The translations under genes were made by a program, and so were the position numbers. From positions 1 through 64,000 of the forward strand of contig JALRBQ010000027.1 of assembly GCA_023257655.1 (NCBI GenBank): a stretch of DNA of 64,000 nucleotides, in the 5' to 3' direction. How positions within the stretch are numbered: position 1 is the stretch's first letter; each line of letters starts with the position of its first letter. This stretch comes from Pseudomonadales bacterium (GTDB taxonomy: Bacteria > Pseudomonadota > Gammaproteobacteria > Pseudomonadales > Pseudohongiellaceae). This document shows, piece after piece, positions 26,781 through 32,326 of the stretch. Below the pieces are notes generated by a model. That model was given only the letters and a program-made list of their open reading frames with translations. It did not search any database and was not told the origin of the DNA.

Positions 26781-27440
26781 CTAGCCGTAGCTGCCATGGA
26801 CGACAGACAGCGCTTCCTTTTCCCGGCGGCCCAGCGTAATCCATTTCTGGACGAAGGGGTTGTCGAGTAGGGTTTGCATATAGATATGGGCTTCTTCACT
26901 GAGCTCCGCACCATAAGCGTTAAAGCTGACGGCAACAGGAGCAAACAGGCAATCGGCGATGGAGAAACGGCCATAGAGATAGTTCCCGTTCTCACCAAAA
27001 CGGCGACGGCAACAGGCCCAGATCGCATCGATGCGGGCTATTTCCTCCGACAGTTTTTCGGAAGGGGTGAGGGTATAGGATGCCTTGCAGTTCATTGGCC
27101 AATCGGCTTTCAGAATCGGGAAGCCAGAGTGAATCTCCGCGCTGACTGAGCGCGCTGAAGCTCGGCGCTTCGGGTGCGAGGGCCATCCACCCCGGTTTAA
27201 TAATTCTTCAGAGATGTACTCGCAAATCGACAGCGAATCCCACACGGTGATGTCCTTGTGCAATAACACCGGCACCTTGAGTGAAGGCGAGTAGGGTCCA
27301 AGTTTTTCCGCCGTATTGTCCTGATACAGAGCGATCTGAATTTCTTCAAACTCGATATCGAACATTTTCAGCAAGAGCCAGGGGCACATAGACCAGGATG
27401 AATAATTCTTGTTGCCGATCACCAATCTCAACGTCTTCAT
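26781..27440 (-). CDS. Glutathione S-transferase family protein
   Basis: Two-domain GST-fold protein of 219 residues. The N-terminal thioredoxin-like domain has LVIGNKNYSSWSMCPWLLLK, with the Ser-rich start typical of zeta/tau-like bacterial GSTs (Ser15/Ser17 candidates for the thiol-activating residue), followed by the cis-Pro segment LKVPVLLHKD and WDSLSICEYI for glutathione contacts. The helical C-terminal domain contains YLYGRFSIADCLFAPVA, the conserved N-capping region. It starts at ATG 27440 and is probably monocistronic. The physiological substrate is unknown; detoxification or a redox role are equally possible. Confidence 0.88.
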   Translation of the reverse strand: MKTLRLVIGNKNYSSWSMCPWLLLKMFDIEFEEIQIALYQDNTAEKLGPYSPSLKVPVLLHKDITVWDSLSICEYISEELLNRGGWPSHPKRRASARSVSAEIHSGFPILKADWPMNCKASYTLTPSEKLSEEIARIDAIWACCRRRFGENGNYLYGRFSIADCLFAPVAVSFNAYGAELSEEAHIYMQTLLDNPFVQKWITLGRREKEALSVVHGSYG

Positions 27441-27470: not shown

Positions 27471-28247
27471 TTATCTGCCTTCCGGATTCTGGGTCAACAT
27501 CTGCTTACTGGCATCTCGCAGTCTGACGATGACCCGACGGTCAAAGAAATCGGATTCGAGGTTCTGCTCTGCTTGCAACGGCTTTGCCTCGCCGTACGCC
27601 ACAGTAGTCATTGCAGCGTCGGCGATTCCTTGATGCTCCAGATAGTGTTTGACAGCAGCGCCTCGTGCGCGTGACAACAGCAAATTACGCTCGGCATCGC
27701 CGTTGCGATCGGCATATCCGGTAATTTCCACGACGGCCGTCGGCATCTGTCGAGCGAGTCGGACCAAACTCTGCAACTGTTCCTCAAACTGCGGTTCTAT
27801 GGTGCTGGAACCGGATCGAAAATGCAGTGACAGGACAGTGTTGTCACAACAGGGCGCAACACTCTGCGTCTCAAATCGTGTCGGTTGCACTGCAGAAGTT
27901 CCCGTGTTCAGGGTTTCCAATTGGGACTTCGCCAACTGATAATTGCGTCGCAGTGCGTCAGTCTCCTCATGTTGCTGCGCGAGCATAAGTTGCAACTCAT
28001 AGATGTTCGCCTGCATATCGCCTACGCGTTGTTTGGCATTCCAGCCATCACCCATGAATGCACCGAGAGCACCTCCGACGATCGCACCAGGCGGACCGCC
28101 GACGAGACTGCCGAAGACGATGCCGCTAAAAAACCCCGTGGTTTCTTCTTTGCTGGCAACCTGTGTGTACTGGTTCTCGCCTTGATCTGCTTGCGCCGTG
28201 ACGCTGGCTACTGCGAGTGCGATAGCGAGGAATGCGTGTCTGTTCAT
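27471..28247 (-). CDS. pdsO: Sortase-associated OmpA-like protein PdsO
   Basis: Outer-membrane/periplasmic OmpA-type protein of 258 residues. It has a signal peptide (1-20), a glycine-zipper segment (41-67) able to insert in a membrane, a coiled-coil stretch (about 75-115), and an OmpA peptidoglycan-binding domain (136-245) with GYADRNGD (177-184), LSRARGAAVKHYL and DFFDRRV (233-239). The combination of glycine zipper plus this OmpA domain ending in NLESDFFDRRV is that of PdsO, a component of the proteobacterial dedicated sortase system. The matching sensor kinase and regulator lie just beyond a 538-base gap, divergently. I infer PdsO from family pattern; a generic OmpA-C protein is the alternative. 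Confidence 0.78.
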   Translation of the reverse strand: MNRHAFLAIALAVASVTAQADQGENQYTQVASKEETTGFFSGIVFGSLVGGPPGAIVGGALGAFMGDGWNAKQRVGDMQANIYELQLMLAQQHEETDALRRNYQLAKSQLETLNTGTSAVQPTRFETQSVAPCCDNTVLSLHFRSGSSTIEPQFEEQLQSLVRLARQMPTAVVEITGYADRNGDAERNLLLSRARGAAVKHYLEHQGIADAAMTTVAYGEAKPLQAEQNLESDFFDRRVIVRLRDASKQMLTQNPEGR

Positions 28248-28785
28248 GTTTCTGGGTCCTGTGTCTGAGGTTTCGGTGGATGCGTTCTCATGCTGGTTAC
28301 TGTGTTTGTGTTTCGTTTACTCGTTTACTATTCACGCCTGAAGTTTGATGTTCATATCTGAGATCAAAGTTGTCCTTTTGCTTCCTGTTGCTTTAAGTTG
28401 CTTGCAGTTGCTTTCGGTTATTTGCAGTTACTTGCAGTTATTTGCAGTTACTAACTGCTACTAGCTACCTCCTGCTACTCGCAGCATTTCCGGCGTTTGC
28501 TCTCTGTCACTGTCCTGTCTTTCAGATTGCTGACAAAAAAGAGGTAGGTTCTAGGCTGCTGTCAGGCGTCGATGTCTCGGGGAGCCTTGCTGCTCCCGGT
28601 TGTCATGGGAGTTTGTATTAAACCTGACGTTTATTGCTTGCGCAGGCGCGGAAAAGGGCTATGTGCTGATTAAATATGGCAGAATAATGACATTTGACGG
28701 AGGCGCGTCGTGCGCGCTCTGTTTCCTCAGGCAATTGCGGTATAGTCGCCGCTAAATTCCTGTAACCCGTAGAGAAAACCCGAAA
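28248..28785. other. 538-base divergent region between pdsO and pdsR
   Basis: No coding frame of 60 codons or more is supportable here, and no sortase-like TLxTC motif was seen in the longer frames. It holds a 10-bp tandem array (28387-28466), a pair of gtttactcgtttac repeats (28314-28327), and near the pdsR end TATAGT (28741-28746) as a possible -10 element, 40 bases before the pdsR start. Confidence 0.5.
28387..28466. repeat. 10-bp degenerate tandem repeat, eight units
   Basis: Eight units of exactly ten bases begin at 28387, 28397, 28407, 28417, 28427, 28437, 28447 and 28457, following the pattern GTT(G/A)(C/T)TTGCA. The fifth and sixth units differ at one base. The array ends about 140 bases upstream of pdsO (minus strand) and 320 bases upstream of pdsR. 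The helical-turn period recalls the arrays elsewhere in this window. Confidence 0.85.
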
Positions 28786-29481
28786 ATGAGTCGCCGAATC
28801 GCAATCGTCGAAGATGAAGCTGCCATCCGCGAAAACTACGCCGATGTGTTGCGCAAGCAAGGTTATGAAGTTCAGACTTACGCCAATCGCAAAGATGCGA
28901 TGCTGGCGTTTGACATCAGATTGCCAAATCTCGCAATCATTGATATTGGGCTGGAGAATGAAATCGATGGCGGGTTTACACTGTGCCAGTCTCTGCGTTC
29001 ACTGTCCGATACACTGCCAATCATTTTCCTGACGGCACGTGACAATGATTTCGATACGGTGAGTGGCCTGCGAATGGGCGCTGATGACTATCTGACGAAA
29101 GACATCAGCCTTCCGCATCTAAGCGCACGTATTGCGGCCTTGTTCCGACGCCTCGATGTAATCGATCAACCGCCCTCTCCGGAAAATCTGCTGCAGCGTG
29201 GCAAGCTGTCACTCGATATTGGTCGCTTGACCGTGCAATGGGAGAATCAGCCAGTCCCGCTCACCGTCACCGAGTTCTGGATGGTTCACGCGTTGACTAA
29301 ATTCCCCGGGCACGTCAAAAGTCGCCAGGTGCTGATGCAGGAATCAAAAATATTTGTCGACGGCAGCACGATAACTTCGCACATCAAACGCATCCGCAAA
29401 AAATTCATGCAACTCGATGCCAGTTTCGATTGTATCGAAACGGTCTACGGCATGGGTTATCGTTGGAACATCGCCCAATAA
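28786..29481 (+). CDS. pdsR: Dedicated sortase system response regulator (OmpR family)
   Basis: DNA-binding response regulator of 231 residues. The receiver domain (1-120) has the acidic pair Asp10/Glu11, phosphoacceptor Asp53 (LAIIDIGLE), and switch residues in FLTARDND and TKDISLPHLSAR. The winged-helix output domain (about 140-231) ends with HIKRIRKKFMQLDASFDCIETVYGMGYRW. The unusual IDIGLENEIDGGFTLCQ around the phosphorylation site matches the sortase-linked regulators I know. It is followed after 22 bases by its kinase. Targets are presumably pdsO and whatever surface protein the system controls. Confidence 0.85.
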   Translation: MSRRIAIVEDEAAIRENYADVLRKQGYEVQTYANRKDAMLAFDIRLPNLAIIDIGLENEIDGGFTLCQSLRSLSDTLPIIFLTARDNDFDTVSGLRMGADDYLTKDISLPHLSARIAALFRRLDVIDQPPSPENLLQRGKLSLDIGRLTVQWENQPVPLTVTEFWMVHALTKFPGHVKSRQVLMQESKIFVDGSTITSHIKRIRKKFMQLDASFDCIETVYGMGYRWNIAQ

Positions 29482-29503
29482 CTGCGCTCCGGGAAACGCT
29501 TGA

Positions 29504-31687
29504 ATGAGCCATTCATTCAAAAATCCGTTTGGCATTCGCTTTCAACTGGTATTTTTGTCCAGTTTTTTGCTGGTGATTCCGTGGCTGGGTTATCGCTACA
29601 TTCTCGAAATGGAGCAATACCTTCGGCGCGGTCAGGAACAGACGATTCTCGGGACGGCACAGGCGCTGGCGACGGCTTTGAACGAACGCCCAGAACTCTT
29701 CGACGAGGGCAGTTACAGCCCGGCGCGGCGCAGCGAAGACTTGTACGTCTATCCCATCTTCTCGCCGCTGTCACTCGATGATGGTTCGCTCGATGACTGG
29801 GGCTCCTATCAGCAGTACGAAGTGGCGTACGGGTATCGGGACTATATTCGCACACCACTCAACCCGTCCCGGTACTACCAGAATGAAAGCTCGCTGCAGT
29901 TCAAGACGATGGTCGGAGAACACGACGGCTCACTGTATGCCTACTTCAAGGTTACCGACGACAAGATCATCTACCGCAGTCGCGATGCCTTGAGTGTGAA
30001 CCGAAGTGATTTCCTGCACATTGCGCTGCTGGGACGGAACGGCGAGGCCGTGCACAACTATGTTATTGCGCCGCATGAGCCGGAGTTCCTGTATCCGTTC
30101 AGCGTCGATGACAATTTCGCCAACCCGATTTACGAGGACCGCATCAGTGGTCAGTGGTATGAGACGGAGTCAGGCTACGAGATCGAACTGCAGATTCCCA
30201 TGGACATGCTGGGAGATCGGCTGGGGTTCGCAATTTTCGATGTGGATGACCAGAAAACCCGGACCATGAATACGGTCGTCGCCACCTACAAGGCGGCCGA
30301 TGCGGAACATCTCGGATCTCTCCGCATTCCGACACCTGAGATCGATCGCATCGTGGCGGGCATGGGGCACAACAATTCCCGCATTCAGGTTGTGGATCGC
30401 AGCGGGCGCGTATTGCTCACCGTGGGCGATATTCAGACGGCGACTGGACTTGCTCTTGCCAGTCCCATAACCCAGGAAAAGGTGAATAAATATTGGCTCT
30501 TTGTCCAGAATCGCATTCTGGATCCGATTTACTACCAGATTCTCACAAAGCCCAGTAACGATTTTATCGACGAGCTCTACTCCGATGTCACGCGAGAAGG
30601 CGCGCATATTGATGCAGCCTTGCAGGGACGCGCCTTCACCCAGTTCCGCACACTCTCTGACACCGACACACGTCTGCTGGAGGCTGCCCATCCGATACTC
30701 GCCGATGGCGAAGTCATGGGCGCAGTCGTGGTCGACCAAAACATGAACGGACTGCGGACGTTCAGAAACCAGGCACTCGAAACCCTGTTCAATACCATAC
30801 TCGCCGTCATGCTGTTTGTCGCCCTCGGATTGTTCCTGTTCGCCTCACGGATTTCAAATCGCATCCGCGGATTGCGCAACCAGGCAGAGAATATCATCGA
30901 TGAGACCGGCAGAATTCGTAACACGATCGTTGCTTCACGCAACTCGGATGAGATTGGTGATTTGTCGCGAAGCTTCTCCAGCATCGTCGAACGACTGACG
31001 CAGTACACCAGTTACCTTGAGAACATGTCATCACGGTTGTCACATGAGTTGCGAACACCCGTTACGGTCGTGCGATCGTCTCTGGAAAACCTCGGTTTGA
31101 CGGCCAAGGACAAGGAATCGGCGGTCTATATCGAGCGGGCGGAGGAAGGCATCAGTCGTCTTAACCTGATTCTAACAAACATGAGTGAAGCGACGCGTCT
31201 GGAGCAGATGCTACAGACTTCAGAGAAGGAGAAGATCGATCTGGGTGCGGTGCTCAATGGCTGTGTCGAAGGATACCGTTTGGCTTATCCGGAATCCGAG
31301 TTCCAGCTCGATATTCCCGAGTACCCGGTAAATATCAACGGCGTGCCCGAATACATTGCGCAATTATTGGACAAGTTGATCGCAAACGCCGTCGAATTTT
31401 CCTATCCCGACCAGCCGATCGTGCTCTTCTGTCGGGCTTTGCGCGATCACGCCGTGTTCAAGGTTGCCAACGCCGGGCCGTATCTGCCGGAAGAGATGAA
31501 GGGGCGTCTATTCGACTCCATGATTTCGGTGCGACCCCAGGAAAAGCAGAAGCAACCGCATCTCGGTATGGGCCTGCATATCGCACGCATTATCACGGAT
31601 TTTCATGGCGGGCATATCAAGGCGGATAACCGCGAAGATCAGGAAGGAGCGGTAATCACCGTCGTCATTCCGCAGTTTTATCGATAA
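29504..31687 (+). CDS. pdsS: Dedicated sortase system sensor histidine kinase
   Basis: Inner-membrane histidine kinase, 727 residues. TM1 lies at about 13-31, followed by the family-specific IPWLGYRYILEMEQYLRRGQ and a large periplasmic region to about 425, part of which resembles a carbohydrate-binding beta-sandwich (YAYFKVTDD, LHIALLG, YEIELQIPMDMLGDRLGFAIFDVDD). TM2 is LFNTILAVMLFVALGLFLFA, followed by HAMP, a HisKA domain with His514 (RLSHELRTPV) and a HATPase domain with a variant N-box (KLIANAVEFS), NAGP and LGMGLHIAR. It matches the kinase of the marine proteobacterial dedicated sortase system. No sortase or LPXTG-type substrate gene lies on either side. Confidence 0.85.
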   Translation: MSHSFKNPFGIRFQLVFLSSFLLVIPWLGYRYILEMEQYLRRGQEQTILGTAQALATALNERPELFDEGSYSPARRSEDLYVYPIFSPLSLDDGSLDDWGSYQQYEVAYGYRDYIRTPLNPSRYYQNESSLQFKTMVGEHDGSLYAYFKVTDDKIIYRSRDALSVNRSDFLHIALLGRNGEAVHNYVIAPHEPEFLYPFSVDDNFANPIYEDRISGQWYETESGYEIELQIPMDMLGDRLGFAIFDVDDQKTRTMNTVVATYKAADAEHLGSLRIPTPEIDRIVAGMGHNNSRIQVVDRSGRVLLTVGDIQTATGLALASPITQEKVNKYWLFVQNRILDPIYYQILTKPSNDFIDELYSDVTREGAHIDAALQGRAFTQFRTLSDTDTRLLEAAHPILADGEVMGAVVVDQNMNGLRTFRNQALETLFNTILAVMLFVALGLFLFASRISNRIRGLRNQAENIIDETGRIRNTIVASRNSDEIGDLSRSFSSIVERLTQYTSYLENMSSRLSHELRTPVTVVRSSLENLGLTAKDKESAVYIERAEEGISRLNLILTNMSEATRLEQMLQTSEKEKIDLGAVLNGCVEGYRLAYPESEFQLDIPEYPVNINGVPEYIAQLLDKLIANAVEFSYPDQPIVLFCRALRDHAVFKVANAGPYLPEEMKGRLFDSMISVRPQEKQKQPHLGMGLHIARIITDFHGGHIKADNREDQEGAVITVVIPQFYR

Positions 31688-31750: not shown

Positions 31751-32326
31751 CTAGCTGGAGGCGTCGGGTCCTGTGTAGTATTTCGGCGCGTTTTCCTTGA
31801 CCACGGGCGAATCAGTCGACCAGGCGTGACAGGTATCGAGTACTACCGGCCGTTTATCTGATTTGCCTACATCCGAATCCGCCTTGTTCTGTCGATGACG
31901 CAGCAGCGGCCAGATGGTCTGCATGGCCACAGTCGCCATCGGGAACAACAACTCGGTGAGGTGTGTACATCCATCGACACCACCAACCTTCTGTCTGATC
32001 GCCTTGCGCCAACCCAGGCCCATTTTGATCCCAATCAACGCCTTGTAATTCAGTGTGATCTCGGGGCAGATCTTGAAGGGGCTGTTGTCAGTAACGGCGA
32101 TCACATCACGAATTACAAAATCATCATCGATCGTAACGCGCAACAACATCTCGTGCAGTGGAGTGCCAACCGCGACCGTCCCTCGCCAGTTGTTCTTGAA
32201 CTCGTAGGTCTTCGTATCGGTCATATGGGCTTCAATGTCCCACATGCCGTCGTCACGTTCGAATCCGCGGTAATTGATCGCGCGGGTATGGACGTGTTTT
32301 CGTGATGTTGCTGCTGGCAATGGCAT
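31751..32326 (-). CDS. DUF2889 family protein
   Basis: Protein of 191 residues matching the uncharacterised DUF2889 family. It begins with HTRAINYRGFERDDGMWDIEAHMTDTKTY, continues with PLHEMLLRVTIDDDFVIRDV and carries GCTHLTELL near 140. Conserved acids, His and Cys suggest a metal- or ligand-binding site, but no activity is established to my knowledge. The start ATG at 32326 is inside a conserved region, so little or nothing is missing. A perfect TATAAT on this strand lies 111 bases upstream. No operon partner. Confidence 0.8.
   Translation of the reverse strand: MPLPAATSRKHVHTRAINYRGFERDDGMWDIEAHMTDTKTYEFKNNWRGTVAVGTPLHEMLLRVTIDDDFVIRDVIAVTDNSPFKICPEITLNYKALIGIKMGLGWRKAIRQKVGGVDGCTHLTELLFPMATVAMQTIWPLLRHRQNKADSDVGKSDKRPVVLDTCHAWSTDSPVVKENAPKYYTGPDASS

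Follow-up and report, generated by a model that had tools for sequence, protein, structure and literature searches.

The locus described here belongs to the dedicated sortase system, defined by the curated families TIGR03784, TIGR03785, TIGR03787, TIGR03788 and TIGR03789, and two further regulatory systems bear on it. CenKR of Rhodobacter sphaeroides is a two-component system whose OmpR-family regulator is described as acting directly on tolQRAB by way of direct repeats with 10-bp spacing; its site, TGA-N8-TGA, was demonstrated by chromatin immunoprecipitation sequencing, RNA sequencing and gel shift, and in 2022 CenKR was reported as the first two-component system directly controlling the Tol-Pal genes (PMC9275681). 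In CreBC/BlrAB the CreB site is given as TTCAC-N6-TTCAC, with creD as known target (PMC4689548). On the sortase side, deletion of the putative sortase gene srtA of Shewanella oneidensis is reported to have left current density without significant change (PMC8176591), and a 2023 paper mentioning class GN sortases calls the role of Gram-negative sortases unknown (PMC10581121). Among the literature matches listed, as titles and starts of abstracts, there was no study of PdsO, PdsR or PdsS. We have analyzed a 64,000-nucleotide stretch (the window, in whose numbering all positions are given) of a genome of the Pseudohongiellaceae, labeled G000, in which pdsO, pdsR and pdsS are found without a sortase. 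We propose, from comparison of sequences, that this is a former sortase regulator that has lost both the sortase and its target and now controls itself and the Tol-Pal genes, and we give this reading a probability of a little under 0.6.

The membership of the trio is clear. PdsO, PdsR and PdsS each exceed the curated NCBIfam cut-off of their own family (TIGR03789, TIGR03787 and TIGR03785, respectively; Table 1), and pdsR adjoins pdsS. This is what a first-pass annotation of the sequence had proposed, and its coordinates, including the extent of the gap between pdsO and pdsR, were exact. The next-best NCBIfam model for PdsR is CreB, while CreC ranks third for PdsS.

The same annotation found no sortase here, and our searches agree. 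Custom profiles built from 29 sortases and two targets, when run against the 929 stop-to-stop frames in the window, gave a single weak target hit of 17 bits (28621–28998, minus strand), and tblastn of the window with 138 sortase and target open reading frames, some of them the same gene in overlapping loci, gave nothing real. The hit lies opposite the beginning of pdsR, in antisense, and we take it for an artefact caused by one over-long reading frame in the reference set, from genome G017; the remainder was noise, and a sortase concealed within the window was set aside. The whole assembly (3.11 Mb in 101 contigs) contains no match to TIGR03784, the class GN or marine sortase, nor to the Pfam sortase PF04203, and for the VIT/VWA target TIGR03788 there is just an 18-bit fragment on another contig, LPXTG-anchor models not having been run genome-wide. 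Because the assembly is only 93.4% complete its own absence is no proof, and the weight of absence rests on a family sample of 99 genomes (Pseudohongiella/OM182, to judge from named relatives) that includes the window genome. A PF04203 sortase is lacking in 97 of these, the two others being G190 and G196, and among the 85 genomes with completeness of 90% or more and contamination of 5% or less it is found in one. No target above 30 bits (TIGR03788) was found in the five family genomes scanned.

The signaling pair has been retained across the family. PdsS is present at E ≤ 1e-60 in 93 of the 99 family genomes (87 over the cut-off), with no internal stop in the places listed. The ratio of nonsynonymous to synonymous change per site (pN/pS) is 0.07–0.12 for pdsR and 0.14–0.28 for pdsS (six comparisons each between family members, with synonymous sites near saturation). 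Purifying selection on both proteins is strong, and their function has been kept. PdsO is under looser constraint (pN/pS 0.42–0.55, three comparisons); it exceeds the cut-off in 36 of the 99 genomes and is matched at E ≤ 1e-38 in 43.

A single strongly conserved block, TGATTAAATATGGCAGAATNATGGCAAT, lies upstream of pdsR in 50 non-redundant family loci. The best match has at least 20 of the 28 letters across all 50, and GGC occurs at –10, +11 and +22 in 49, 46 and 44 of them. The block in the window scores 46.6, against 4.8 for the next-best place in the 64 kb. On this conservation we predict that the three-part block is the operator to which PdsR would bind. The element extends beyond the family. 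Eleven of 82 non-family pdsR upstream regions (G376, G396, G468, G481, G303, G292, G434, G377, G356, G047 and G430) exceed 6.9, the top score of all shuffles at 20 per region. Three of the sortase-bearing loci stand above the shuffles, G292 at 36.2, G356 at 31.8 and G047 at 8.9, and in the first two the operator is near the same position. At the third half-site G356 and G376 have GGC, whereas G292 does not, and the predicted recognition helix TITSHIKRIRKKF is identical in G292, G280, G356, G376 and the window. Since non-family matches are few, the operator is common to some sortase-bearing relatives and is diverged or absent in most others.

Between pdsO and the predicted operator there are also about six tandem copies of a AGTTACTTGC-like 10-bp repeat (28378–28452); as regulator boxes these were set aside, being outside the conserved block.

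The operator has a second copy. Scanning 33 chosen genomes, 28 of them from the family, with the pattern TGAYNAAWTRTGGCANAATNNTGGCA and up to three mismatches gave matches in 32, whereas the reversed pattern gave one match over all 33. The window genome has exactly two sites, one before pdsR and the other between ruvB and tolQRA (C72:30099–30124), where TolQ and TolA are both over their cut-offs; seven further genomes from two genera have a site in the same gap. A wider test took the best 80 of 212 TolQ relatives, the 62 whose TolQ is 71% identical or more being taken as the family and the other 18 as outsiders; two of the 62 family loci have fewer than 310 bases before tolQ, and at least four overlap with the scan-positive genomes. 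The family tolQ gap scores 0 or more in 42 of the 62 and 10 or more in 27, compared with five and none of 658 background tiles drawn from these loci, and no outsider gap reaches 0 (maximum –5.6). Against 30 shuffles of its own sequence the gap wins in 45 of the 62, in 43 of these on the minus strand. All 42 sites scoring at least 0 are on the minus strand, and 41 of them sit 190–325 bases before tolQ. The third half-site, 21 bp further and outside the two-half-site search matrix, is G.C in 38 of the 42, and no position outside the three half-sites rises above 14 among the 42. In the scan list it is present in all eight tolQ sites and in none of the four sites within predicted open frames, one of which sits right where its frame begins.

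Other matches to the pattern were less persuasive. The sites at TonB-receptor genes (G211, G201 and G190) and at GH17-GT2 genes (G044 and G156) all lack the third half-site (0/5), as does that at bolA (G110), and we passed over them as chance matches or weaker targets. Two operator-like sites do have the third half-site, one (L294 3988, in G201) after a 743-amino acid frame that resembles a tail-specific protease by eye, and one (L298 2245, in G396) between frames of 178 and 1161 amino acids; these are possible extra targets. In many family loci, for example L308, the tolQ gap also contains a second conserved block, GTTAAATGC-TTTTCAC-AAACTATTT-TTGGCCGAAT, between the operator and tolQ.

The sensor kinase begins with a long N-terminal helix, followed by a beta-rich CBM9-like domain (residues ~107–274), a sheet at 293–413, a HAMP-like region, HisKA and HATPase; of the Pfam models HisKA and HATPase_c are over their cut-offs, and HAMP, at 16.8, is below its cut-off of 25. 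The first-pass annotation saw a segment like a carbohydrate-binding beta-sandwich in the periplasmic part of the kinase. The beta-rich domain is present in an AlphaFold model of the window kinase (mean predicted local distance difference test score 80.6, predicted template modeling score 0.49), and 29 of the 60 PdsS proteins aligned match CBM9_1 at E ≤ 0.1 (best 1e-8), but the window kinase itself has no CBM9_1 match. In PdsO, D180 and R195 are invariant among the 10 proteins aligned; we take these to be the peptidoglycan-binding residues of OmpA-type domains. PdsO scores 60.5 bits on the Pal model, under the cut-off.

These elements can be assembled into a mechanism. Most likely the ancestor of the family lost the sortase together with its sorted surface protein. 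PdsS would sense an envelope signal through its periplasmic CBM9-like domain and pass it to PdsR, and phosphorylated PdsR would bind the three-part operator, phased at 11 and 21 bp, in the pdsO–pdsR gap, thereby controlling itself, and pdsO where that is present. In most of the family the operator also lies before tolQRA, and PdsRS probably controls the Tol-Pal machinery, which maintains envelope integrity and holds the outer membrane to the cell. PdsR would most likely be an activator at tolQ; activation of both sides is favored because the orientation of the tolQ site corresponds to the pdsO–target–sortase side of the pdsR operator. With its OmpA domain and conserved aspartate and arginine, PdsO would suit as a co-regulated partner. 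The predicted sites suggest a role for PdsRS in envelope maintenance.

A regulator kept without its sortase separates the signal watched by the sensor from the job of the sortase, and a predicted DNA site with a predicted target can be tested in a single experiment. PdsRS may control Tol-Pal as a second two-component system that evolved independently, in a different bacterial class from CenKR. The former sortase regulator would have kept its kinase, operator and promoter when the sortase disappeared, and would have gained tolQRA as a target within one family; we put this fuller proposal at slightly less than an even chance. If PdsRS does control Tol-Pal, the sortase systems called dedicated may be just one output of an envelope-integrity sensor.

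Table 1. Features of the pds locus and its neighbors, in window coordinates.
Feature	Position	Strand	Description	Support
Glutathione transferase-like gene	26781–27440	–	Conserved neighbor	
pdsO	27471–28247	–	Secreted OmpA-family protein with glycine zipper	TIGR03789, 183.9 bits (cut-off 152.2)
pdsO–pdsR gap	28248–28785		538 bases	
Conserved TATTAAAC (GTTTAATA on minus strand)	28616–28623	–	Possible –10 element toward pdsO	50-sequence profile
Predicted PdsR operator	28657–28694	+	Half-sites GGC 28657, GGC 28678, GAC 28689	Spacing 21, 11
Operator core TGATTAAATATGGCAGAATAATGACA	28667–28692	+		
Conserved TATAGT	28741–28746	+	Possible –10 element of the pdsR promoter	
pdsR	28786–29481	+	OmpR/PhoB-type response regulator	TIGR03787, 404.8 bits (cut-off 335.7)
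pdsS	29504–31687	+	Sensor histidine kinase	TIGR03785, 825.1 bits (cut-off 612.2)
DUF2889 protein gene	31751–32326	–	Kept downstream in most fetched family loci	PF11136, E 7e-45

In fetched family loci without pdsO, the glutathione transferase-like gene is directly before pdsR.

How general is the association of this regulator with a sortase? Within the order, PdsS (E ≤ 1e-80) occurs in 48 of 145 genomes sampled, a marine sortase (at least 146 bits) in 29 and both in 26; 22 of the 48 PdsS genomes are without a sortase, and 3 of the 29 sortase genomes without PdsS. At E ≤ 1e-60 there are 56 PdsS genomes, 29 of them without a sortase, and 27 of the 29 sortase genomes have PdsS. A class sample of 321 genomes has 65 with PdsS (E ≤ 1e-60), 43 with a sortase (E ≤ 1e-30) and 33 with both, 32 of the 65 being without a sortase and 10 of the 43 without PdsS. 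The limits for PdsS, 1e-80 in the order sample and 1e-60 in the class sample, were picked after the tables were seen, and the Fisher probabilities (1.5e-12 for the order, 2e-18 for the class) are calculated on related genomes that are non-independent. The association is strong yet one-sided, in that about half of PdsS genomes have no sortase while most sortases are accompanied by PdsS. The sortase-less family outscores the sortase-bearing genomes of the order sample on TIGR03785 and TIGR03789. Product names taken from these two models overstate sortase systems, and the NCBI name 'dedicated sortase system' is misleading for the sortase-less genomes of the family.

Elsewhere the system is complete. 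Four loci from other orders (L221, L222, L242 and L249) have a full operon in which pdsO, target and sortase run in that order away from the divergent pdsR and pdsS, and the window has the same order minus the two distal genes. A tree of PdsR plus PdsS was made from 96 loci, of which 29 include the sortase, 18 have it elsewhere in the assembly and 49 are without; 11 loci lacking the full pair were left out, and G031 (a sortase of another kind, 73 bits) was coded as without, G520 (76 bits) as with and G190 as elsewhere. The family clade is sister to G376 with support 1.0, and G376 has pdsO in place and its sortase elsewhere. Parsimony requires 22 changes, compared with a shuffled mean of 32.4. 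The PdsS of the window is 28–34% identical to the 25 compared non-family PdsS proteins of its own order and groups with other orders, and transfer between orders is therefore possible.

A number of observations weigh against a lost sortase and a regulator turned to Tol-Pal. The root of the parsimony reconstruction is ambiguous, with support of 0.57 at the joining node, which leaves the ancestral sortase uncertain. The complete gene order is not the commonest, pdsO being found at the locus by this search in 5 of the 29 sortase-bearing rows, in one of which (L241) it lies beyond the sortase. The operator matrix is exceeded in just the 11 of 82 non-family regions, and in 3 of the 29 whose locus includes the sortase. 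At tolQ, 20 of the 62 family gaps score below 0, and one of the 18 outsiders (L366) beats its own 30 shuffles at its score of –5.6. Genus g97, basal within the family in the tree, has PdsRS without the tolQ site in all three genomes tested (G150, G154 and G159), while G149, an assembly 90% complete, 7% contaminated and in 480 contigs, has a tolQ site of 23.3 though PdsS was not detected. Of the 18 tolQ gaps in non-family genomes with PdsR, 17 score below –4, and a tolQ site therefore does not go with PdsR in general; the gap in non-family G420 reaches a marginal 3.0 and beats its own 30 shuffles, and no TolQ match was found in G292.

The best of the alternatives is that PdsRS is the older element, a two-component system of the envelope working autonomously, and that the sortase and target joined its operon as a client module in some lineages, nothing having been lost here. 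We raised our estimate of it, and lowered that of a lost sortase, because of the low counts for pdsO and for the operator at sortase-bearing loci. It would also accommodate the ambiguous root, the many PdsS genomes without a sortase in both samples, and the 18 of 96 tree rows with an off-locus sortase, though some of these have contig breaks near pdsR. Set against it are the place of pdsO in the four complete operons, which is that in the window, the presence of a sortase in the sister G376, and the infrequency of a sortase without PdsS, and on balance we consider it somewhat unlikely. More doubtful still is the idea that the element between ruvB and tolQ is the similar site of another regulator, PdsRS regulating only itself. 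The discordant genomes G149 and g97 would fit, but the element was found with the motif upstream of pdsR and matches it in two half-sites and in a third at the 21-bp spacing.

It is improbable that a sortase is hidden, either too divergent for the models or in an unassembled part of the genome. The fragmentation and incompleteness of the assembly would allow this, and the curated model TIGR03784 may miss some sortases, as in G520, where a divergent sortase-like gene (L219 3486–4226) beside a target gene scores only 76 bits on the custom profile and where TIGR03784 gives no match at E 1e-30. A congener, G190, has a sortase of 164.7 bits (TIGR03784, cut-off 158.25) and a target of 702.4 bits (TIGR03788, cut-off 551.65). 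The pair (L156 5930–8648) is far from the pdsO–pdsR–pdsS locus of that genome, no PdsR box at a score of –4 or more was found at the sortase, and sortase and target share no more than 48 and 49% identity, respectively, with the others compared; the pair was probably acquired later. In G196 there is a sortase fragment at a contig end. Against a hidden sortase stand the rarity of PF04203 among the family genomes, including the more complete, and the empty target scan. That the trio is a decaying, functionless remnant, as the fast evolution of PdsO and its presence in under half of the family might suggest, is scarcely credible, being contradicted by the constraint on pdsR and pdsS and the retention of PdsS without stops. 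Of the two options left by the first-pass annotation, a new role in signaling is thus favored by the family-wide lack of a sortase, the retention and constraint of the regulatory pair and the tolQ site, while a sortase moved elsewhere fits one congener, G190, and perhaps G196. The example given in the annotation was envelope-stress sensing by way of the OmpA domain of PdsO; a pdsO-like match was found in just 43 of the 99 family genomes, against 93 for PdsS.

Our proposal of a former sortase regulator now acting on itself and Tol-Pal can finally be set beside the known systems. With the dedicated sortase system the window shares a trio above the family cut-offs, the divergent order of the complete operons, and an operator in the gap as in the sortase-bearing G292 and G356; it differs in the absence of sortase and target and in the extra predicted operator before tolQ. 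CenKR likewise has a regulator site before tolQ, but is alphaproteobacterial and uses another site, and the predicted link of PdsR to tolQ comes from sequence comparison. The geometry of the predicted PdsR site, TGGCA-N6-TGGCA, is that of the CreB site; the half-site sequence and the known target creD differ, and the PdsR site has in addition a third half-site 21 bp away.

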